A stretch of DNA of 64,000 nt, from contig CP065590.1 in the NCBI GenBank assembly GCA_016025055.1, positions 3,100,001-3,164,000 of the forward strand. Direction: 5' to 3'. Under the pieces are notes generated by a model. The model had not been told where the DNA came from. It worked only from the letters and a program-made list of their open reading frames with translations, and made no database searches. A program made the translations under genes and the position numbers. The stretch comes from Chryseobacterium indologenes. Lineage in GTDB: Bacteria > Bacteroidota > Bacteroidia > Flavobacteriales > Weeksellaceae. Below, piece after piece: positions 1 to 9,769 of this stretch (positions are counted from its first letter, which is position 1; every line of letters starts with the position of its first letter).

Positions 1-2
1 TT

Positions 3-50
3 TCTATTATTGCTGTTGTCATTAACAACAGTAAGGAAACGGCATTTTAA
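3..50 (+). CDS. partial leader peptide of a first ilv attenuator
   Basis: The window opens inside a short reading frame ending at TAA 48-50. Its last residues read SIIAVVINNSKETAF, so the start of the visible part is rich in Ile and Val. A second frame over the same bases (stop 52-54) is rich in Leu, so the translated frame cannot be settled without the missing start. The frame is followed by a terminator hairpin at 79-106, and bases 36-43 can pair with its left arm. This is the same layout as the complete leader peptide at 132-188. The peptide call is inference from codon content and position. Confidence 0.45.
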   Translation, partial: SIIAVVINNSKETAF

Positions 51-78
51 ATAGATTTTAAATTTAAATTATATACAG

Positions 79-106
79 GCCGTTTCAATTTGAAACGGCT
101 TTTTTT
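79..106 (+). terminator. intrinsic terminator, probable first attenuator
   Basis: The arms 79-87 (GCCGTTTCA) and 91-99 (TGAAACGGC) form a perfect 9-bp stem followed by seven T. An upstream segment at 36-43 (GAAACGGC) is exactly complementary to 79-86 and could form a competing antiterminator. It could instead simply end an upstream transcript, but the competing pairing and the Ile/Val-rich frame before it favour attenuation. Confidence 0.7.
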
Positions 107-131
107 ATTTTAATTTTTTATTGTACAAAGT

Positions 132-188
132 ATGTATCAGTTATTAAGCGTAGTTATTATCGTCATTATTATTCCCTTGCGTCTGTGA
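132..188 (+). CDS. ilv operon leader peptide
   Basis: An 18-codon frame encodes MYQLLSVVIIVIIIPLRL. Twelve of the 18 residues are Leu, Val or Ile, including a run of eight from Val7 to Ile14. It lies just upstream of a terminator and of ilvE. The UGA stop (186-188) sits inside the segment 183-190 that can pair with 224-231, so ribosome position would decide between antiterminator and terminator. This is the known architecture of ilv/leu attenuators in enterobacteria. No Shine-Dalgarno is visible, as is usual for flavobacteria. Confidence 0.8.
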   Translation: MYQLLSVVIIVIIIPLRL

Positions 189-250
189 GAAGGAAAGTGT
201 ATGACTTTACATATATCGGGCCCTCTCACAGCGTGAGAGGGCTTTTTTTT
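183..250 (+). promoter_or_regulatory. ilv transcription attenuator
   Basis: The terminator is a perfect 10-bp stem (220-229 GCCCTCTCAC with 233-242 GTGAGAGGGC, loop 230-232) followed by eight T. The antiterminator pairs 183-190 (CTGTGAGA) with 224-231 (TCTCACAG), which removes most of the left arm. A ribosome stalled on the Ile/Val codons at 150-173 should leave 183-190 free and allow read-through. A ribosome reaching the stop codon should cover it and let the terminator form. The structure is read directly from the sequence; the switching behaviour is inferred. Confidence 0.8.
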
Positions 251-283
251 ATTCCATTTGTTAATTTTTTAAACCAGTACAGC

Positions 284-1147
284 ATGTATTACAACGACGA
301 CACGGTCATCTATTTTAACGGTAACTTCAGAAAAGCAAAAGAAGCCGGAACCGATCTTTACGGGCAATCTCTTCACTACGGATACTCCGTTTTCGAAGGA
401 ATTAAATCTTACAGTACCGATAACGGAACGAAAATTTTTAAAGCAAAAGAACATTACGAAAGGTTAAAAAGATCCGCCGACCTGATGCATATTCCGTTTG
501 AATATTCTGTAGAGCAGCTTACAGATCTTACCTATGAACTTTTGGAGAAAAATGGATTTTCAGATGCTTATATCCGTCCGTTGGTGACCTGCTCACCCAA
601 TATGTCACTTTCAAAAGGGAAAGAATCTTACCTCTCCCTGTTAGCATGGGAATGGAATAACGGTTATCTGGCAGATAAAATGAAGATCGTGACTTCAGAA
701 TTTCAACGCCCGAATCCCAAAGCTTTTAAAGTGGAAGCCAAAGTAGGAGGGCATTATGTGAATTCGATCCTTGCTTGTCAGGATGCCAAAGACAAAGGCT
801 ACGATGAAGCTTTGGTTCTGGATGAAAACGGAAATGTTGCCGAAAGTTCAGGAGCCAATGTTTTCTATGAAAAAGACGGTACATTATTCACTCCCGCCAA
901 AGGAAGTATCCTTCCCGGAATTACCAGACAAACAGTGATGGAAATCTGTCATGAACTTCAGATCCCCGTGAAAGAAACATTCTTTAAACCCGAAGAAATG
1001 CGTGGTGCTGATGCAGGCTTTTTCTGTGGTACCGCAGCAGAAATTGTTGCTCTTGATTCATTGGATGATGTTTCCTTTACCAAAAATTGGGAAGATACGC
1101 TAAGTCATAAAGTACAGGAGGCTTATTTAAAATTAGTAAGATTTTAG
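284..1147 (+). CDS. ilvE: branched-chain amino acid aminotransferase
   Basis: This PLP fold-type IV enzyme transaminates Val, Leu and Ile with 2-oxoglutarate, the last step of their synthesis. The start ATG 284 gives a 287-residue protein beginning MYYNDDTVIYFNG. An upstream extension would read through the attenuator hairpin and is rejected. The catalytic Lys is K153 in EAKVGGHY, and NVAESSGANVF holds the phosphate-proximal Glu (E187). It is the first structural gene of the ilv operon, 33 bases after the attenuator T-run, and is followed by a 329-base gap before ilvD. Confidence 0.95.
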   Translation: MYYNDDTVIYFNGNFRKAKEAGTDLYGQSLHYGYSVFEGIKSYSTDNGTKIFKAKEHYERLKRSADLMHIPFEYSVEQLTDLTYELLEKNGFSDAYIRPLVTCSPNMSLSKGKESYLSLLAWEWNNGYLADKMKIVTSEFQRPNPKAFKVEAKVGGHYVNSILACQDAKDKGYDEALVLDENGNVAESSGANVFYEKDGTLFTPAKGSILPGITRQTVMEICHELQIPVKETFFKPEEMRGADAGFFCGTAAEIVALDSLDDVSFTKNWEDTLSHKVQEAYLKLVRF

Positions 1148-1476
1148 TCATTGTAGATTTTTAAAGTATAAGTATTTGATTGTTAATTTTTTATGTGTTA
1201 TTTATAAACGATTGAATATTGTAGTTTTCAATAAAATCGAAATTAAGGAAAATATGACAAGCTGTAGTTTTGAACCAAAATTTAGGAAAAAGCTTCATTG
1301 ATACGTTATGAAAATCTAAAACTTTCAAAATTTTACTGAGAAATAGACAACGCATGTAAGGAAACTCGGGGAATAGTAAAAAGAACCGGATTATAACGAA
1401 CGGATATAGATAGCTAGGGATTTGTTTAACGCTAACAGAACCTTATTTAGAGGAAGAAATAAAAAAAAGGATAAAT
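1148..1476 (+). other. gene-free stretch between ilvE and ilvD
   Basis: The 329 bases are AT-rich and hold no convincing reading frame, no strong hairpin with a T-run and no clear TANNTTTG promoter. Because no terminator is seen, read-through from ilvE into ilvD remains possible. An internal promoter cannot be excluded. Confidence 0.5.
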
Positions 1477-3156
1477 ATGTTGAATAAATATTCAAAAACA
1501 TTCACCCAAAATAATGAGCAGCCTGCTGCAAAAGCGATGTTGTATGGAATAGGCTTTTCAGAGGAAGATATGCAGAAGGCCCAGGTTGGCATTGCAAGTA
1601 TGGGATATGACGGAAATACCTGCAATATGCATTTAAATGATCTGGCAAAAGTAGTCAAAAAAGGAACCTGGAATCATGGTCTTGCTGGATTGATTTTTAA
1701 TACAATCGGCGTAAGTGACGGAATGAGTAACGGCACAGACGGAATGCGCTACTCACTGGTCAGCAGAGATGTCATTGCAGACAGTATAGAAGCAATTTGT
1801 GGAGCCCAGTATTATGATGGCGTCATTGCCTTACCGGGATGTGACAAAAATATGCCGGGCACGCTCATAGCGATGGGAAGACTCAACAGACCTTCGATCA
1901 TGGTCTATGGAGGAACAATCGCTCCGGGCTGTTATAAAGGAGAATCATTGAATATAGTTTCAGCATTTGAAGCGCTGGGAAAAAAAATTGCAGGGGAGAT
2001 CACGGATGAAGATTTTGAAGGAGTAATTAAAAACTCGTGTCCGGGAGCAGGAGCTTGCGGAGGAATGTATACAGCCAATACCATGGCTTCGGCCATAGAA
2101 GCACTGGGAATGAGCCTTCCGTACTCATCTTCAAACCCTGCCTTAAGTAAGGAAAAGAAAGAAGAATGTCTGGAGGCAGGAAAATATCTTAAAATATTAT
2201 TAGAAAAAGATATTAAACCTTCCGATATCATGACCCGAAAGGCTTTTGAAAATGCGCTTCGCTTAATTGTAATTCTTGGTGGAAGTACAAATGCCGTTTT
2301 ACATTTTATTGCTATGGCTAAAAGTGTCGGAGTATCCGTTACCCAGGATGATTTTCAGAAAATGAGCGATTGTACACCCGTTCTGGCAGATCTCAAACCA
2401 AGCGGAAAATATCTGATGCAGGATTTGCATGACCACGGAGGTACGCCGGCTGTCATGAAATATCTCCTGAAGGAAGGATTACTGCATGGAGACTGCCTTA
2501 CCGTCACCGGAAAAACAATAGCAGAAAATCTGGAAAATGTTCCTGATCTTGATTTTAGTCAGCAAAAAATTATAAGACCGCTTTCTCAACCTGTAAAAGA
2601 AACAGGACATCTCAGAATTTTATACGGAAATCTTGCAGAAAAGGGAAGTGTTGCAAAAATAACAGGGAAGGAAGGTGAGCGGTTCACCGGAAAAGCAAGG
2701 GTCTTTGACGGAGAAAAGAATCTGATCCAGGGTATTGGAGACGGAACAGTACAACATGGAGACGTGATTGTAATAAGGCATGAAGGCCCGAAAGGAGCTC
2801 CCGGAATGCCCGAAATGCTGAAACCAACAAGCGCACTGATCGGAGCCGGATTTGGAAACAGCGTAGCACTTATTACCGATGGCAGATTCAGTGGAGGAAC
2901 CCACGGTTTTGTAGTGGGTCATATTACTCCTGAAGCCCATGAAGGCGGATTGATTGCTTTCGTAGAGGACAATGATCTTATTGAAATCGATGCCGTAAAC
3001 AATACGATACAACTGAAAGTTTCAGAAGAAGAAATCGCTAAAAGAAGGGAAGGATGGCAAAAGCCTGAATTAAAAGTAAAAAAAGGACTGTTGTATAAAT
3101 ATGCTCTCACTGTATCATCAGCAGCTGAAGGTTGTGTAACAGACGAAATCATGTAA
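1477..3156 (+). CDS. ilvD: dihydroxy-acid dehydratase
   Basis: This cytoplasmic Fe-S enzyme dehydrates 2,3-dihydroxy-3-methylbutanoate and -pentanoate to the 2-oxo acids that IlvE aminates. The 559-residue length fits the IlvD/Edd family. Cluster-ligand Cys are visible at about 49 (NTCNMHL), 122 (PGCDKNMPG) and 194 ([11 protein letters not shown]). The C-terminal part has the [13 protein letters not shown] and [10 protein letters not shown] motifs. The end is separated by 11 bases from the ilvB start, consistent with co-transcription. Confidence 0.96.
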
Positions 3157-3167
3157 ATAAAAGAATA

Positions 3168-4892
3168 ATGACGAATTGGAATTTATCAACAGAAAAAGAG
3201 CTTAGCGGCAGTCGGATCATTCTTGAAGCTTTTCTTCAGGAAGGGGTGAAGACCATTTTCGGATATCCCGGAGGAGCTATCATTCCTATTTATGATGCCC
3301 TCTACGACTATAAAGATAAGCTTGAGCACATTCTGGTACGACACGAGCAGGCCGCAGTACACGCGGCGCAGGGGCTGGCAAGGGTTTCGGGAGAAGTCGG
3401 TGTGGTAATGGCAACCAGTGGCCCAGGTGCTACAAATCTGATAACAGGACTGGCAGATGCCTTACTCGATAATACACCAGTAGTCTGCATTACAGGACAG
3501 GTTTTCGAACACCTTCTGGGAACGGATGCTTTTCAGGAAATAGATGTGATGAATATCAGCAGCCCTGTGACCAAATGGAATTACCAGGTCACTGATGCCC
3601 GTGAGCTTCCGGAAGTCTTGGCCAAAGCATTTTATATTGCCAAATCAGGACGTCCGGGCCCGGTTTTAATTGATGTCACTAAAAACGCTCAGCTGCAAAC
3701 TGTTGAATACCAGGGATACACTCCTTGTGATTCTTTGAGAAGTTATAAGCCTGATCCGGTTCCGGATTCGGAAAGCATCGAAAAAGCCGCAGCTTTGATT
3801 AATGCCGCAAAGAAGCCGTTTGTAATTGCTGGTCAGGGAATTCTGTTGGGAAAAGCTGAAAAAGAATTCCTTCAGTTCGTCGAGAAATCAGGAATTCCGG
3901 TTGCCTGGACGGTGTTGGGAATGAGTGCTGTTCCCACTGATCATCCTCAGGCTGTAGGAATGGTGGGGATGCATGGAAACTATGGACCCAATGTCCTTTC
4001 TAATGAATGTGATGTATTGGTTGCCGTAGGAATGCGTTTTGACGACAGGGTTACAGGAAGGCTCGATCAATACGCCAAACAGGCAAAAATTATTCATTTT
4101 GATATTGATAAAGCTGAAATTAATAAAAATGTAAAAGCAGATGTACCGGTTCTTGGCAATTGTAAACATACGCTCCCTCTTCTTACTGAGTTGATCCAAA
4201 ATAGAGCACATCAGGATTGGCATACAAAATTTAAAGATTGCCATGAAGTGGAAAGTATTAATCTGATTCAGGATGAATTGTACCCTCGGGAAGGAGAAAT
4301 TACGATGGGGGAAGTGATCAGGTGTCTCAACGAAATGACTGCAGGAGAAGCAATTATTGTCACAGATGTAGGACAACATCAGATGGCTGCCTGCCGATAC
4401 TCAAGTTTTAAGTATTCCCGTACCAATGTCACAAGCGGGGGATTGGGAACAATGGGATTTTGTCTTCCGGCAGCAATTGGGGCCAGCTATGCAGCAAAAG
4501 GTCGCCCGGTGATAGCGATCATGGGAGATGGAGGTGCGCAGATGAATATCCAGGAGCTGGGAACAATCATGCAATATCATCCGGAGGTGAAAATTTTAAT
4601 CCTGAATAATTGCTATCTCGGTATGGTAAGACAGTGGCAGGAATTATTTCATGAAGAAAGATACTCTTCAGTAGATATTCAGAGTCCAGATTTTGTACAG
4701 GTCGCCAAAGGATATCATATTCAGGGAAAGAGAATTTCCCAAAGAGAAGATCTGGAAAACGGACTTCGTGAAATGCTTCATCACCACGGAACTTTTCTCC
4801 TTGAAGTCATGACAGGGAAAAAGCATAATGTATTTCCTATGATTCCCCAGGGAAAAAGTGTCTCAGAAATTGTATTGAGTAACAAATTTTAA
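3168..4892 (+). CDS. ilvB: acetolactate synthase, large subunit
   Basis: This ThDP- and FAD-dependent catalytic subunit condenses two pyruvates, or pyruvate with 2-oxobutyrate. The 574-residue protein from ATG 3168 shows the N-terminal FGYPGGAIIPIYDAL, the catalytic Glu in VRHEQAAVHAAQG, a central FAD-binding domain (GMVGMHGNYGPN) and the ThDP motif GDGGAQMN ending in NN. A longer in-frame start inside ilvD is possible but gives an atypical N-terminus. It pairs with the small subunit encoded downstream. Confidence 0.96.
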   Translation: MTNWNLSTEKELSGSRIILEAFLQEGVKTIFGYPGGAIIPIYDALYDYKDKLEHILVRHEQAAVHAAQGLARVSGEVGVVMATSGPGATNLITGLADALLDNTPVVCITGQVFEHLLGTDAFQEIDVMNISSPVTKWNYQVTDARELPEVLAKAFYIAKSGRPGPVLIDVTKNAQLQTVEYQGYTPCDSLRSYKPDPVPDSESIEKAAALINAAKKPFVIAGQGILLGKAEKEFLQFVEKSGIPVAWTVLGMSAVPTDHPQAVGMVGMHGNYGPNVLSNECDVLVAVGMRFDDRVTGRLDQYAKQAKIIHFDIDKAEINKNVKADVPVLGNCKHTLPLLTELIQNRAHQDWHTKFKDCHEVESINLIQDELYPREGEITMGEVIRCLNEMTAGEAIIVTDVGQHQMAACRYSSFKYSRTNVTSGGLGTMGFCLPAAIGASYAAKGRPVIAIMGDGGAQMNIQELGTIMQYHPEVKILILNNCYLGMVRQWQELFHEERYSSVDIQSPDFVQVAKGYHIQGKRISQREDLENGLREMLHHHGTFLLEVMTGKKHNVFPMIPQGKSVSEIVLSNKF

Positions 4893-4988
4893 AAAAGAAA
4901 AAGATGAAATCGCCATGACTGCATAACATAAACACTATGAAGGTGAAGCGATTCCATATGACTATTGAAAAACATTAAATATCTGCAT

Positions 4989-5270
4989 ATGAAAACAGAA
5001 CATAAAGAATATACCATCACAGCCTATACAGAAGATTATTTCGGATTGATCAGTCGTATCAATGCTATCTTTTCAAGAAGAAGGATTTCCATACAGACCT
5101 TTCATGTAGGACCTTCAGAAACAGAAACGGTGAAAAAGTTCATCATCGTCATCAGAGAAACTGAAGAATCTGTTCAGAAGATTACCCGTCAGATGGAAAA
5201 ACAGGTCGATGTACTGGAAGTGCATTATCACAAAAATCCACATTTCACAGCAATGGAATATGCCAGCTGA
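4989..5270 (+). CDS. ilvN: acetolactate synthase, small (regulatory) subunit, short form
   Basis: ATG 4989 gives a 93-residue protein consisting of one ACT domain (TITAYTEDYFGLISRINAIF, then RRISIQTFHVG). This domain normally binds valine and stimulates and feedback-inhibits the large subunit. A TTG at 4965 would add eight residues but is less likely. The C-terminal domain of the roughly 160-residue IlvH form is absent, so it resembles the short E. coli IlvN/IlvM type. Its position between ilvB and ilvC supports the assignment. Confidence 0.88.
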   Translation: MKTEHKEYTITAYTEDYFGLISRINAIFSRRRISIQTFHVGPSETETVKKFIIVIRETEESVQKITRQMEKQVDVLEVHYHKNPHFTAMEYAS

Positions 5271-5310
5271 ACGTAACAATGAAACATTTCAGTGGAGTTT
5301 AAAAGACGAA

Positions 5311-5371
5311 CACTTAAGCTTTTAGAAACCTTTGATTTTCGCCTTATTTAAAGTAAGGTGAAGCGCTTAAG
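5311..5371 (+). repeat. dispersed palindromic intergenic repeat, copy 1
   Basis: The block is bounded by CTTAAGC (5313-5319) and GCTTAAG (5365-5371) and contains a smaller inner hairpin of CCTTATTT with AAAGTAAGG. A diverged relative lies at about 7966-8023, sharing AAACCTTTGATTTTC and the flanking order of motifs. It sits in the 179-base gap between ilvN and ilvC and lacks a T-run, so it is not a standard terminator. Confidence 0.55.
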
Positions 5372-5449
5372 AAAAAAATGAATAGTGAAAAAATAAGATC
5401 AAAGAATCTTTATCATCAAAATAATATATAATAATTAAAATCAAGAAAA

Positions 5450-6496
5450 ATGGCAAAATTGAATTTTGGAGGAGTTGAAGAAAACGTAGTAACAAGAGAA
5501 GAGTTTCCATTACAAAAAGCCCAGGAGACCTTAAAAGATGAAGTGGTAGCCGTAATCGGATATGGAGTACAGGGACCGGGCCAGGCATTAAATCAGAAAG
5601 ATAACGGAATTAATGTCATTGTAGGACAGCGTAAAAATTCAAAATCATGGGATAAAGCAGTAGCAGACGGATTCGTACCGGGAGAAACCCTGTTCGAAAT
5701 TGAAGAAGCTTTACAAAAAGGAACCATTATCTGCTATCTTTTAAGTGATGCAGCACAAATTGAATACTGGCCAAAAGTAAAACAGCACCTTACACCTGGC
5801 AAAGCGTTATATTTCTCTCACGGTTTCGGAATTACATTCAATGAACGTACGGGAATCATTCCTCCTGCTGATGTTGATGTTTTTCTGGTAGCTCCTAAAG
5901 GTTCAGGAACTTCTTTGAGAAGAATGTTTCTTCAGGACAGAGGTTTGAACAGCAGTTTTGCCGTATATCAGGATGCCACAGGAAAAGCAAGGGAAAGAGT
6001 AACCGCTTTGGGGATTGCCATCGGAAGCGGATATTTATTTGAAACAGATTTTAAAAAAGAAGTATACAGCGACCTTGCAGGAGAAAGAGGAACATTGATG
6101 GGAGCTGTACAAGGAATATTTGCTGCCCAGTATGATGTGTTGAGAAAAAATGGACACAGTCCGTCAGAAGCATTTAACGAAACGGTAGAAGAACTTACCC
6201 AGTCTTTAATGCCATTGGTAGCGGAAAACGGAATGGACTGGATGTATGCGAATTGCAGTACAACCGCTCAGAGAGGAGCATTAGACTGGTGGAAACGCTT
6301 CAGAGACGCCACATCCCCTTTATTCGAGGAGCTATACGATAATGTTGCCAAAGGAAATGAAGCCCAAAGATCTATAGATAGCAACAGCAAACCTGACTAC
6401 AGAGAAAAACTGGAAGTCGAATTGACCGAGCTTAGAGACAGTGAAATGTGGCAGGCCGGAAAAACGGTCCGCAGCCTGCGACCGGAAAACAATTAA
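5450..6496 (+). CDS. ilvC: ketol-acid reductoisomerase
   Basis: This NADPH- and Mg-dependent enzyme isomerises and reduces acetolactate or acetohydroxybutyrate to the dihydroxy acid used by IlvD. At 348 residues it has class I length. The Rossmann motif is GYGVQGPGQALNQ, which differs from the common GYGSQGHA form and is probably a lineage variant. VAPKGSGTSLRR, YSDLAGERGTLMG and the C-terminal helical region follow in order. ATG 5450 follows an A-rich leader. Its stop is 14 bases before the ilvA start. Confidence 0.95.
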   Translation: MAKLNFGGVEENVVTREEFPLQKAQETLKDEVVAVIGYGVQGPGQALNQKDNGINVIVGQRKNSKSWDKAVADGFVPGETLFEIEEALQKGTIICYLLSDAAQIEYWPKVKQHLTPGKALYFSHGFGITFNERTGIIPPADVDVFLVAPKGSGTSLRRMFLQDRGLNSSFAVYQDATGKARERVTALGIAIGSGYLFETDFKKEVYSDLAGERGTLMGAVQGIFAAQYDVLRKNGHSPSEAFNETVEELTQSLMPLVAENGMDWMYANCSTTAQRGALDWWKRFRDATSPLFEELYDNVAKGNEAQRSIDSNSKPDYREKLEVELTELRDSEMWQAGKTVRSLRPENN

Positions 6497-6510
6497 TCAA
6501 TCGTAAAAAA

Positions 6511-7773
6511 ATGATGAAGGAAGAAATAAGCTCCTCCGTTTTGGAGAAGGTCTGCAATGCGGAGGAGCGTCTTAAGAATGTTATTGTAAAGACCCCTCTG
6601 GCAGTAAATGTAAACCTGTCATTTCTCTATCAGGCCAATATCATGTTTAAAAGAGAAGATCTTCAGCGGGTAAGGTCTTATAAAATCAGAGGAGCTTACA
6701 ATAAAATGGCTGGTATGTCTCCTGAAAGCCTGGCCAAAGGAGTGGTATGTGCGAGTGCAGGGAATCATGCCCAGGGAGTGGCGTTTGCCTGCCATACGAT
6801 GAAAGTGAAAGGAACGATCTTCATGCCTTTACCGACACCGGGACAAAAACTGGAGCAGGTAAGGATGTTTGGCGGTGAATATATTGACGTTGTTCTTTAC
6901 GGAGATACTTTCGATGAGGCTAAAGATGCTGCGTTGAGGTTTTGTAAAGATCACGATGGTGTATTTATTCATCCCTTTGATGATCCTGCGATTATTGAAG
7001 GTCAGGCAACAGTGGCACTGGAAATTCTTGACCAATCGGAGCATTCTGTAGATTATCTTTTCGTACCGGTAGGTGGAGGAGGGCTGGCAGCAGGAATTTG
7101 CTCCGTCTTCCGGGAGTTGTCCCCTAAAACAAAAATTATTGGCGTAGAACCTTCTGCCGCTGCCAGTATGAAAAAGGCAATGGAAAAAGGTAAACCGGTA
7201 TTGCTGGAGAAGATCAGCCGTTTTGTTGATGGAGCCGCGGTACAGCAAGTGGGAAACCTTACTTTCGAACGGTGCAAAGATGTACTGCACCAAATGGCTA
7301 CTGTAGATGAAGGATTGGTCTGCCAAACTATTTTGTCCTTATATAATAAGGATGCCATCGTCGTTGAACCTGCGGGAGCGCTTTCTGTTGCCGCATTGGA
7401 AAAGTATAAAGATGAATTAAAAGGTAAAAATGTAGTATGTGTGATCAGTGGAAGCAATAATGATATCACCCGTATGGAGGAAATTAAAGAAAAAGCTCTT
7501 TTGTATGCAGGATTGAAGCATTATTTTCTGGTCAGGTTTCCGCAGCGTCCGGGAGCACTCAAAACTTTTGTAATGGATGTACTGGGGCCTGATGATGATA
7601 TCACCTATTTTGAATACACCCAGAAAAACTCAAAAGAAAAAGGAATAGCTGTCGTAGGAATCGCTTTGAAACAAAACGGAGATTTTACACCATTGATCCA
7701 TAAAATGAAAAAGTACGATTTCTTTGTCAATTATCTGAACAATGACCCGTCTCTGATGAACCTTCTTATTTGA
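6511..7773 (+). CDS. ilvA: threonine dehydratase (biosynthetic)
   Basis: This PLP enzyme deaminates threonine to 2-oxobutyrate, the entry to isoleucine synthesis. ATG 6511 gives 420 residues. The PLP Lys lies in RSYKIRGAYNKM, the substrate loop is CASAGNHAQGVAF and the phosphate loop is GGGGLAAG. One C-terminal ACT-like regulatory domain begins near YFLVRFPQRPGALK, matching the short form with a single such domain rather than the 514-residue E. coli type. It is the last gene of the ilv operon. Confidence 0.95.
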   Translation: MMKEEISSSVLEKVCNAEERLKNVIVKTPLAVNVNLSFLYQANIMFKREDLQRVRSYKIRGAYNKMAGMSPESLAKGVVCASAGNHAQGVAFACHTMKVKGTIFMPLPTPGQKLEQVRMFGGEYIDVVLYGDTFDEAKDAALRFCKDHDGVFIHPFDDPAIIEGQATVALEILDQSEHSVDYLFVPVGGGGLAAGICSVFRELSPKTKIIGVEPSAAASMKKAMEKGKPVLLEKISRFVDGAAVQQVGNLTFERCKDVLHQMATVDEGLVCQTILSLYNKDAIVVEPAGALSVAALEKYKDELKGKNVVCVISGSNNDITRMEEIKEKALLYAGLKHYFLVRFPQRPGALKTFVMDVLGPDDDITYFEYTQKNSKEKGIAVVGIALKQNGDFTPLIHKMKKYDFFVNYLNNDPSLMNLLI

Positions 7774-7780
7774 GAAGGTT
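7759..7780 (+). other. hairpin spanning the ilvA stop codon
   Basis: AACCTTCT (7759-7766) pairs with AGAAGGTT (7773-7780) around the TGA stop. No T-run follows, so it is not an intrinsic terminator. It may stabilise the operon's 3' end or be incidental. Confidence 0.4.
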
Positions 7781-7822
7781 GCAAGCTGCAAGCTGGAAGC
7801 CGGGAGAGGGAAGTTGGAAGTA
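7781..7822 (+). repeat. degenerate 7-bp tandem repeat
   Basis: Six consecutive 7-mers follow directly after the ilvA hairpin: GCAAGCT, GCAAGCT, GGAAGCC, GGGAGAG, GGAAGTT and GGAAGTA. The 7-base period is clear and no reading frame is involved. Confidence 0.65.
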
Positions 7823-8263
7823 CTGTTAGGCGAAATACATTTTGGATGTTTGTAATTCCTGAAATGGATCAATACTAGTGCGCGAATCTCTGATTAAAAC
7901 TACAAAAGTCACAAAAGCTTTTGAATACTTAAGTTATTTAAAAGTGACAAACTTTGTGGATAGCAAGTTCACTAAAGTTTATGAAAACCTTTGATTTTCT
8001 TTTAAAGTGAGTTAACGCTATAGTCGCAAAGATCTTTTACTGAATTAAAAAAAAATTTCGCAAGGGCTTTCACTCAACTAATTGTCAATGATACTTTGCT
8101 GGGCAGAGCGCCTTAGCAAACGTAAAATAGGAGAATATACTCAGACACTTAGCGATCGTAGCGTTATAAAGCACAATTTTTATTGAAAAAAATCTGCGTT
8201 ATCTGCTTGATCTGCGAGGGGTTCATTCGGTTAGTTCAACGAAATTCTAAAAACACAATGATG
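7823..8263 (+). other. gene-free repeat-rich region downstream of ilvA
   Basis: No coding capacity is convincing here. At 7966-8023 there is a diverged relative of the 5311-5371 repeat. At 8108-8129 GCGCCTTAGCAAACG resembles GCGCCTTTGCGAACG at 16300-16313 in another intergenic repeat. The segment looks like accumulated remnants of dispersed intergenic repeats. A short frame at 8183-8455 runs through the terminator into the antisense of the peptidase gene and is not credible. Confidence 0.5.
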
Positions 8264-8297
8264 AAAAAAGCTTCACAAATTCTTGTGAAGCTTTTTT
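8264..8297. terminator. bidirectional intrinsic terminator
   Basis: A perfect 15-bp stem (8264-8278 with 8283-8297) with loop ATTC carries an A-run on one side and a T-run on the other. It ends the minus-strand M28 peptidase gene and can stop plus-strand transcripts from the ilv operon. Confidence 0.9.
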
Positions 8298-8299
8298 AT

Positions 8300-9769
8300 T
8301 TATCGTTCAAGCGAAAAGTTAGTAATAACCTTCGGACGTCCGGTCTCATTAGCTACTTTCCAGGATGTTCTGTACATCCATTCAGTCATTTTATAGAGCT
8401 TTTTATAATTGATGTTTTCAGATTCATCCTGTGGAGTATGGTACTGATCATGTAGCACACTGGTAAAGAAGATAGCAGGAATTCCGGCTTTAGCATAAGG
8501 AAGATGATCACTTCTGAAGTAAAAATATTCCGCATGATTCGGGGAGTCCCAATCTTTTAAATAGTTGAATTTTGTACTTTCATTATTAGCCTCTTCAGCC
8601 ATTTTTACCAATTCTTCAGAATTTTTATGAGGCGCGTTTCCACCCAGTAAAGCTGCTTCATTATTATCATTTCTTCCGATCATATCCCCATTCAGGACGG
8701 CTACAATTTTTTCTTTCGGAACAACAGGGTGGGCTACATGCCATCTCGATCCCAGCAGACCTCTTTCTTCAGCACCGTGGAACACAAACAGAATACTTCT
8801 TTTTCCCGGTTGCTTTTTGTAGGCTCTGGCCATAGCGAGCATGGCAACACAGGTACTGGCATTGTCATCAGCTCCGTTGTAGATGGTGTCATTTTTCACT
8901 GGATGTCTGATCCCGTCGTGATCCTGGTGTCCGCTTAATAAAACATATTCATCCTTAAGAACGGGATCTGTACCTTCTATTTTTCCGATGATATTGACCG
9001 AAGGATATTTGTAAGTTTCCGTAACGAGATTCAGGGAAACCTTAGGATTGCTTTTTACCCAATCTGCATTTTCTCTTTTGATCCATAGAACAGGGATATT
9101 CTGGGTTATTTTTTCCCGTAAACCTTCCACCCCATAGCTGCCTCTTGTCATTTGAGGAAGAACTTCGACCCAGCTTTTTTCAGAGATATCGTCGGTAATG
9201 AAGACAATTGCCCTGGCTCCCAGTTCATAGGCTTTGTTATAATACTTGTTTCGCACAAATCCGGGATATCTTCTTACAAAAAGGGTCATATCCTTATCTA
9301 TATTTTTATCGGAAGCGTTAACGGCAAGTACTTTCCCTTTAATGTTCAATGCGGAAAGGCCTTCGGGTTCTGTATTTCTGGCATAGACAATTTCAGCATC
9401 AAAAGCCGTATTTACTGGTTCCGCAACCAGAAAATCTTTCCATAATTTCAGGTTTTTATCACCAACCTTCAGACTGCTTTGAGGCGTGATCTGATGCCTG
9501 TACATTTCAAAAAACTGAAAGAAAGTTCCATGATCACCGGCGGGCTTCATTCCTGCTTCTTTAGCTTTATCTGCGAGCCACATCGATACTTTCAATTCAT
9601 CTAAAGTTCCTGCTTCACGGCCCCAGAACTGATCTGCAGCCAGTTCATACATATCCTTTCTGAGATCGGTTTCTTTGATGGCCGACACCAGAGGCTTTTT
9701 GTAATTCTGGGCATTTCCGATACTGAATAAAACTAAGCTCAGTACAGAAAAAATATAGTTTTTATTCAT
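8300..9769 (-). CDS. secreted M28-family zinc peptidase
   Basis: This predicted extracytoplasmic metallopeptidase of the aminopeptidase type has 489 residues. It has a signal peptide (MNKNYIFSVLSLVLFSIGNA), a protease-associated domain in the N-terminal half, and the M28 core with zinc or catalytic residues in LSGHQDHDG, GADDNAS, HGAEERGLLGS, NGDMIG and a late His (HDQYHTP). The substrate is unknown. It starts nine bases downstream of the small gene 9779-10015 on the same strand. Confidence 0.9.
   Translation of the reverse strand: MNKNYIFSVLSLVLFSIGNAQNYKKPLVSAIKETDLRKDMYELAADQFWGREAGTLDELKVSMWLADKAKEAGMKPAGDHGTFFQFFEMYRHQITPQSSLKVGDKNLKLWKDFLVAEPVNTAFDAEIVYARNTEPEGLSALNIKGKVLAVNASDKNIDKDMTLFVRRYPGFVRNKYYNKAYELGARAIVFITDDISEKSWVEVLPQMTRGSYGVEGLREKITQNIPVLWIKRENADWVKSNPKVSLNLVTETYKYPSVNIIGKIEGTDPVLKDEYVLLSGHQDHDGIRHPVKNDTIYNGADDNASTCVAMLAMARAYKKQPGKRSILFVFHGAEERGLLGSRWHVAHPVVPKEKIVAVLNGDMIGRNDNNEAALLGGNAPHKNSEELVKMAEEANNESTKFNYLKDWDSPNHAEYFYFRSDHLPYAKAGIPAIFFTSVLHDQYHTPQDESENINYKKLYKMTEWMYRTSWKVANETGRPKVITNFSLER

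Follow-up and report, generated by a model that had tools for sequence, protein, structure and literature searches.

Does the branched-chain amino acid (ilv) operon of Chryseobacterium indologenes stand under the control of two leader-peptide attenuators arranged one behind the other, and do both of them read the same amino acids? Leader-peptide transcription attenuators are classically known from the ilv, leu, trp and his operons of enterobacteria, where single switches belong to the textbook, and a comparative study of attenuators is said to have been made by Vitreschak and colleagues. A conserved serial pair has, unlike such single switches, rarely been described and would give tighter control. 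Here, we analyze a window of 64 kb (the whole stretch of 64,000 nucleotides, G000:C1:3100001-3164000) lying in one contig of a 4.92 Mb genome, together with its upstream flank and the ilv loci of relatives. We consider it highly probable, from sequence evidence, that one promoter is followed, ahead of the ilv operon, by two complete ribosome-mediated attenuators in series, which would sense the same amino acids.

Layout of the ilv leader region

The preceding gene, folP (dihydropteroate synthase), ends at L002:4916 and is separated by 84 nt from base 1 of the window. The forward strand, on which all features lie, then presents a promoter, leader 1, terminator 1, leader 2, terminator 2 and the genes ilvE-D-B-(N)-C-A, in this order. 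The promoter box TACATTTG, which is of the Bacteroidota type, is located outside the window at L002:4955-4962. It is followed by the 27-codon ORF of leader peptide 1 (MNFTNQKNIIVISIIAVVINNSKETAF), whose ATG at L002:4967 precedes base 1 by 34 nt and whose 3' part fills positions 1-50 of the window, with the stop codon at 48-50. Hairpin P1, in the control-codon region, spans 12-32 (12-19 with 25-32); in the predicted fold it is extended by pairing of 1-5 with 35-39, which includes the start of antiterminator segment 1 and is protector-like. This segment (GAAACGGC, 36-43) pairs at 8 of 8 positions with 79-86 in terminator 1 (77-101), a hairpin with a T run. Unit 2 is complete as well. Leader peptide 2 (MYQLLSVVIIVIIIPLRL) is encoded by 18 codons plus TGA (132-188, TGA at 186-188), the protector-like hairpin P2 (162-205) includes part of antiterminator segment 2, and this segment (CTGTGAGA, 183-190) runs across the leader stop codon and pairs at 8 of 8 positions with 224-231 in terminator 2 (218-244), again a hairpin with a T run.

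These elements are observed directly, and they bear out a sequence-only reading of this stretch that had proposed two leader-peptide attenuators in series ahead of the ilv operon, the second one complete: every element lies where that reading had placed it. It had described the first frame as Ile/Val-rich or Leu-rich. Of the two, the Ile/Val frame stands, as it has an ATG and an N..VIS motif in 52/52 judged loci; the Leu-rich frame falls, being without an ATG or GTG ahead of its Leu run.

The operon begins with the branched-chain transaminase gene ilvE (284-1147, TIGR01122), followed by ilvD for dihydroxy-acid dehydratase (1477-3156, TIGR00110), ilvB for the large subunit of acetolactate synthase (ORF limits 3132-4892, TIGR00118; the true start is probably slightly downstream of 3132), ilvC for ketol-acid reductoisomerase (5450-6496, TIGR00465) and ilvA for threonine ammonia-lyase (ORF limits 6448-7773, TIGR02079), all with family matches above the cut-off. 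The ORF at 4965-5270, for which an NCBIfam match at E 1e-20 was not found, we take from its position and size to be probably ilvN, encoding the small subunit.

Searching the 64 kb with Rfam at the gathering score gave no match, and hence no riboswitch aptamer or amino-acid leader family; in window 1-1480 only sub-threshold matches to families with unrelated, non-riboswitch names were obtained and discarded. The region may work like a tandem riboswitch but, because a match to an aptamer class is absent from the Rfam search, it is not a member of that group. It shares with classical attenuators, as far as the available accounts describe them, an ORF with control codons, a protector-like hairpin, an antiterminator segment at the stop codon, an intrinsic terminator and the pathway operon downstream. 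It differs from them in having two complete units in series and a gap of only four bases between promoter box and ATG1. This four-base gap recurs in 49/52 loci (L002:4955-4969 and relatives), and given its length the leader 1 message may be leaderless or nearly so.

Proposed mechanism and amino acid signals

From this layout we infer translation of the leaders, stalling, termination and a multiplicative output. RNA polymerase would make leader 1 first. When charged Ile- or Val-tRNA is scarce, a ribosome would stall in the Ile/Val run of leader 1 and leave 36-43 free to pair with 79-86, by which terminator 1 would be abolished; a ribosome at the stop codon would cover 36-43, and terminator 1 would form. 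Only transcripts past terminator 1 would meet leader 2, where the decision would be repeated with 183-190, 224-231 and terminator 2. Because there is a single promoter box, a transcript would have to pass both gates, and because the gates stand in series and both would read Ile/Val, basal read-through should multiply and the response should steepen.

The spacing of the elements is compatible with this scheme. A ribosome occupies 12-15 nt from its P site, according to the accessible part of a study on Salmonella (PMC3641672). When the final three residues of each leader are left out, the distance from the last Ile/Val codon to the start of the antiterminator segment is 15 nt in 45 of the 49 unit-1 leaders scored (3, 19, 19 and 28 nt in the other four) and 12-14 nt in 52/52 unit-2 leaders, the value varying with the position at which pairing begins. 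A ribosome whose A site holds the last Ile codon of leader 1 should leave 36-43 free, since the segment starts 15 nt beyond; for unit 2, the distance of 12-14 nt implies that a stall one codon earlier than the last Ile would free the segment. In both units, a ribosome that has reached the stop codon would, by the same geometry, cover the antiterminator segment.

Both peptides are dominated by conserved branched-chain residues. Leader 1 has 9 Ile/Val in its 27 codons, and in all 49 leaders of 27 residues V11, I12, S13 and V18 are invariant, with I9 kept in 48, V17 in 45 and I19 in 43 (Val in the remaining 6). It has no conserved Leu, except at the very end in part of the loci. In leader 2, the 47 leaders of 18 residues share V7, I9, I10, V11, I12, I13, I14, P15 and L16 without exception, and I8 is kept in 46 of them; Leu occurs early at 4-5, where position 5 is variable (31/47), and at 16. 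Both units should therefore read Ile and Val, as far as codon content indicates, with a possible lean of unit 1 to valine (V17 V18 I19) and of unit 2 to isoleucine (I12 I13 I14).

It is tempting to go further and assign different signals to the two units, mainly valine to unit 1 and mainly isoleucine or leucine to unit 2, with a combined response as in the mgtCBR leader. The codons nearest the decision point do differ, V17 V18 I19 (45, 49 and 43 of 49) against I12 I13 I14 (47/47 each), and Leu16 of leader 2 is invariant. However, each peptide contains several Ile plus several Val codons, and by geometry a stall at any of these should free the segment, so we regard such a division of labour as unlikely, although it is the strongest of the competing explanations. 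Leucine sensing in particular is not favoured, because a stall at Leu16 would by geometry cover antiterminator segment 2 and because a stall as early as Leu4/Leu5 could allow the protector P2 to form. The suggestion of the sequence-only reading that the pair might sense Leu first and then Ile/Val has consequently lost ground: both peptides are Ile/Val-rich, and the conserved Leu codons are where a stall should not help.

Evidence on the independence of the two units

The preferred reading of two switches for the same amino acids requires that unit 1 is more than an accident of the sequence. Against it stands the view that only unit 2 regulates: hairpin 1 would end the transcript of folP, or a short non-coding RNA, and the ORF of leader 1 would have arisen by chance. 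A position after folP is indeed right for a folP terminator, and terminator 1 is the weaker hairpin (-14.5 vs -20.2 kcal/mol for terminator 2). For detection, a unit had to combine an intrinsic terminator with a short ORF ahead of it in which 10 codons include at least 6 I/L/V. Chance does produce such combinations at a low rate: among 1000 dinucleotide-preserving shuffles of the folP-ilvE gap, in which the native sequence has two units, 27 gave one, 973 none and none gave two. Applied to both strands of the 64 kb window at this low threshold, the detector made 14 calls. Unit 2 stands out with 9 I/L/V in 10, as against 6 or 7 in each of the other 13; unit 1 is not callable in this run because its ORF starts upstream of base 1. 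A scan of window 1-8300 gave 12 terminator-like sites, compared with a mean of 6.5 (sd 3.0) in shuffles, and ranked terminators 1 and 2 at the top. The predicted RNA folds of both regions are more stable than those of shuffled sequences, by 4.9 sd for 1-110 (0/200 as low) and by 2.8 sd for 133-255 (2/200 as low).

A bystander role of hairpin 1 is contradicted by the promoter box and ATG1, which stand between it and folP. The box TANNTTTG precedes ATG1 by 12 nt in 49/52 Chryseobacterium loci, and none of the 52 has it in the 60 nt ahead of ATG2. On this count a promoter box between terminator 1 and ATG2 was rejected, and one clade hardly has space for it. A promoter consensus TAnnTTTG has been described for Flavobacterium psychrophilum, according to the available part of that study (PMC9723704). 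At L074 (2570-3003), unlike in Chryseobacterium, a possible second promoter box of this type (TAAATTTG) is seen by eye before the second leader.

Conservation and co-occurrence of the units were observed directly. A scan of named genomes yielded 80 ilvE loci, 53 of which form the main Chryseobacterium clade (52 named loci plus the window), and both leaders are encoded in 52/52 judged loci of this clade. ORF lengths vary by multiples of 3 (63, 66 or 84 nt in unit 1; 54, 57, 60 or 63 nt in unit 2), unlike the stop-to-terminator spacers, which vary by single bases. Unit 1 has also kept an antiterminator segment of its own, with pairing in 95.7% of cells. At genus level, the exact unit-2 pattern occurs in 82/173 genomes, and an exact search for both leader cores matched 80/173, with 0 hits for a reversed control pattern. 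The two lists share 79 of the 82 unit-2 genomes, and the three outside the second list nevertheless have leader 1: G045 and G119 deviate from the pattern by one base, and leader 2 of G094 is longer. Leader 1 thus accompanies the exact type of unit 2 in 82/82 genomes. Together with the box, its own conserved ATG and the conserved ORF, this led us to reject the tail of folP, a possibility that the sequence-only reading had itself considered for the first frame, and likewise a plain terminator as an account of unit 1. We therefore judge regulation by unit 2 alone to be improbable.

The pair is not universal. Among 20 further genus loci picked from the ranking of ilvE matches (identity 83% for G119 and 55-75% for the others), 13 have one unit, four have two and three have none, with the detector threshold lowered to 5 and a weak call at L262 discarded; the pair is dispensable there, which counts against our interpretation, as does terminator 1 of L011 and L103 (one species), which has a mismatch and falls below the detector limit. 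Antiterminator segments were not found in the distal units of L057, L068 and L070 or in the proximal unit of L073. The 53rd locus of the main clade, L027, may differ from the others. Its ilvE is 90% identical, its contig ends 114 nt before ilvE, and the residue (1-113) is without the usual terminator 2 or unit-2 sequence; by eye it contains a hairpin of another sequence, below the detector limit. Two of the four two-unit loci, L263 (G052) and L264 (G165), have an ilvE only 55% identical to that of the window and a distal terminator nearly the same as that of L066 and L068. Their sequences suggest that the operon was transferred together with its own tandem leader.

Conservation of pairing is clear, and covariation is firm for P1 only and in part for T1, the stem of terminator 1, as assessed with a shuffle control that ignores relatedness and is weakened by this. 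P1 is paired in 93.8% of cells, and both its score and its number of doubly changed cells were reached by 0/500 shuffles; its three doubly changed pairs were reached by 66/500, and slid versions score lower. For T1, 99.8% of cells are paired, five sequences have A-U in place of G-C, and 0/500 shuffles reached the covariation score, but the count of doubly changed pairs was reached by 237/500 and the structure slid by 2 columns scores slightly higher. As a whole the covariation is thin and mixed, which counts against our interpretation. The P1 extension is 98.1% paired, has no changes on both sides and is still 95.4% paired when slid by one; antiterminator 1 has no excess of covariation (score reached by 103/500 shuffles); antiterminator 2 is 90.4% paired with a modest signal in one pair (5/500) and scores higher than in its true register when slid 1-3 columns toward the 3' end; P2 is 95.2% paired, with no change on both sides. 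The sequence-only reading had proposed a comparison of relatives for covarying stems; covariation is present in P1 and partly in T1, with little or no excess elsewhere. In the clade L037/L050/L059, scored as mostly unpaired for P1, the region is rewritten to ACTATTG...CAATAGT or a close form and, by eye, could still form a hairpin.

Each antiterminator segment prefers the terminator of its own unit (duplex energies of -14.2 and -13.7 kcal/mol) over that of the other (-5.7 and -4.9 kcal/mol), which makes the two switches orthogonal, a property shown here by duplex calculation. A single composite RNA in which both regions fold jointly, for instance as one long-range switch, is very improbable despite the short distance of 81 nt from stop 1 to ATG2, in view of this weak cross-pairing and of relatives with single units that by eye resemble either the proximal (L251-L257) or the distal type (L138-L142, L144-L149).

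Stacked units in Bacteroidota and related systems

Elsewhere in this genome, one terminator and a His-rich leader (MKPIFLALHHYYHHLC) lie in the 450 nt upstream of hisG (L245), and one terminator and a leader with three consecutive Trp codons in those upstream of the trpE match (L247). The 450 nt before the leuA match yielded no terminator at the detector limit and no such leader. The hisG family match is above the curated cut-off, and leuA and trpE are the best matches below it. Among ilv, his, trp and leu, only ilv is doubled, because two terminators lie in the folP-ilvE gap as compared to one or none elsewhere. A separate element of ~100-150 bases is present in the ilvE-ilvD gap (window 1148-1310), with matches in 52/80 named ilv loci and a second copy directly before the leuA match of this genome (L243/L271; 80% identity along 97 bases, with 10 bases left between its end and the match). 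The predicted fold is hardly more stable than that of shuffles (z -0.6 and -1.1), which makes a shared promoter or protein-binding site likelier than a structured RNA.

Outside the main Chryseobacterium clade, the detector assigned three units to 2, two to 11, one to 13 and none to 2 of 28 named loci. Calls dropped as spurious before tandem loci were counted were those ~560-670 nt upstream of ilvE in L007, L008, L017 and L023, and the first call in L082. Inspection by eye adds a second, distal unit at L074. At L082 (Myroides), where one of two calls was spurious, a near-identical second copy of the proximal unit lies beside a run of N marking an assembly gap. An ilvD match is present in 275/392 genomes of the phylum, and 127 upstream regions were taken from the matches listed, with genus members excluded (27 delivered as loci and 100 fetched). 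Two or three units occur in 7/127 of these regions (L153, L157, L164, L173, L174, L184, L213), which again argues for a dispensable pair; 54/127 gave no detector call, some of them being misses, such as L180, which has a leader and terminator by eye; the remainder have one unit, with doubtful calls in L117, L120, L228 and L237. L116-L142 cover just 1.5 kb before ilvD, so that in some of them a distal unit may escape notice, and spurious calls far upstream or at other genes were dropped in L143, L165, L184 (the first of three), L204 and L240 (extras).

Three stacked units are seen in L066 (Aequorivita) and L068/L153 (Flavobacterium; L153 probably derives from the same genome as L068), the last two being very similar. 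Units 2 and 3 are 93.3% and 84.9% identical in L066 and L068, and this high identity of adjacent units points to local duplication as a way of adding units. First and later units are only 50.7-57.8% identical in these loci and 55.0% in the window (global alignment). Such identity of 50-58% between distal and proximal units is probably little above the chance level of A+T-rich sequence, and the two types are anciently diverged or unrelated.

Clues for leader-peptide attenuation of amino-acid operons have been reported for Flavobacterium psychrophilum, with a list of 64 structured leaders in the supplement, as far as the available part of that source extends (PMC9723704). These clues and the recurrence of tandem copies in Bacteroidota temper the view of the sequence-only reading that the arrangement is unusual in a flavobacterium, which remains apt in that such copies are a minority. 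Within the part of the open-licence literature surveyed, we found neither a description of tandem leader-peptide attenuators for ilv operons or from Bacteroidota nor a biosynthetic operon under serial leader-peptide attenuators that respond to the same signal; an earlier notice elsewhere is possible.

The closest known systems, compared here on the basis of the accessible parts of their descriptions, each share some features with the ilv leader. The tandem attenuators of Salmonella mgtCBR respond to ATP and proline and were called a singular example in 2012 (PMC3641672). They likewise have two short ORFs in one leader, one per attenuator, but their stem-loops do not resemble intrinsic terminators, of which there are two here, so the ilv leader is not of the mgtCBR type; mgtCBR reads two different signals, and both ilv peptides carry Ile and Val codons. 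The mefA/msrD operon also has two attenuators, described as a 'double-lock', the second consisting of a leader peptide and an intrinsic terminator (PMC10314930). There, in contrast to the ilv operon, stalling is drug-induced and the second attenuator controls msrD alone, so that the two do not form one leader. The rimP-leader of some Gammaproteobacteria has a second terminator in tandem (PMC2965389) and resembles our region in its two serial terminators, the upstream one with a potential antiterminator, but the accessible description does not present it as an amino-acid leader-peptide system. Tandem riboswitches for the same ligand have been termed pseudo-cooperative (PMC9481103); they too are two complete switches with the same input in series, with a steeper output expected, but the sensor here would be a translating ribosome and not an aptamer.

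A broader proposal, to which we give slightly less than an even chance, is that stacked attenuators, two and sometimes three, on ilv operons of Bacteroidota are a deliberate and long-kept architecture, built from an old distal/proximal pair and local duplications, in which the number of units tunes the repression floor and the steepness of the response. The prediction for the pair is numerical, as basal read-through and induction ratio should both multiply. By way of illustration, a single switch with 10% read-through when off and 80% when on would as a pair give 1% and 64%, i.e., a 64-fold instead of an 8-fold ratio. The effective Hill number rises only slightly when computed with a normalised saturating model (1.12-1.15 vs 1.00), so that the pair is expected mainly to lower the floor and enlarge the ratio rather than to act as a sharp switch. 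If two same-signal switches in series are the correct interpretation, the pair would be the ribosome-read counterpart of pseudo-cooperative tandem riboswitches. It would then pose a testable question: does evolution multiply whole ribosome-read switches as it does riboswitches? The system is suited to this question, as its units are short and orthogonal and as relatives have zero detected, one, two or three of them before one operon.
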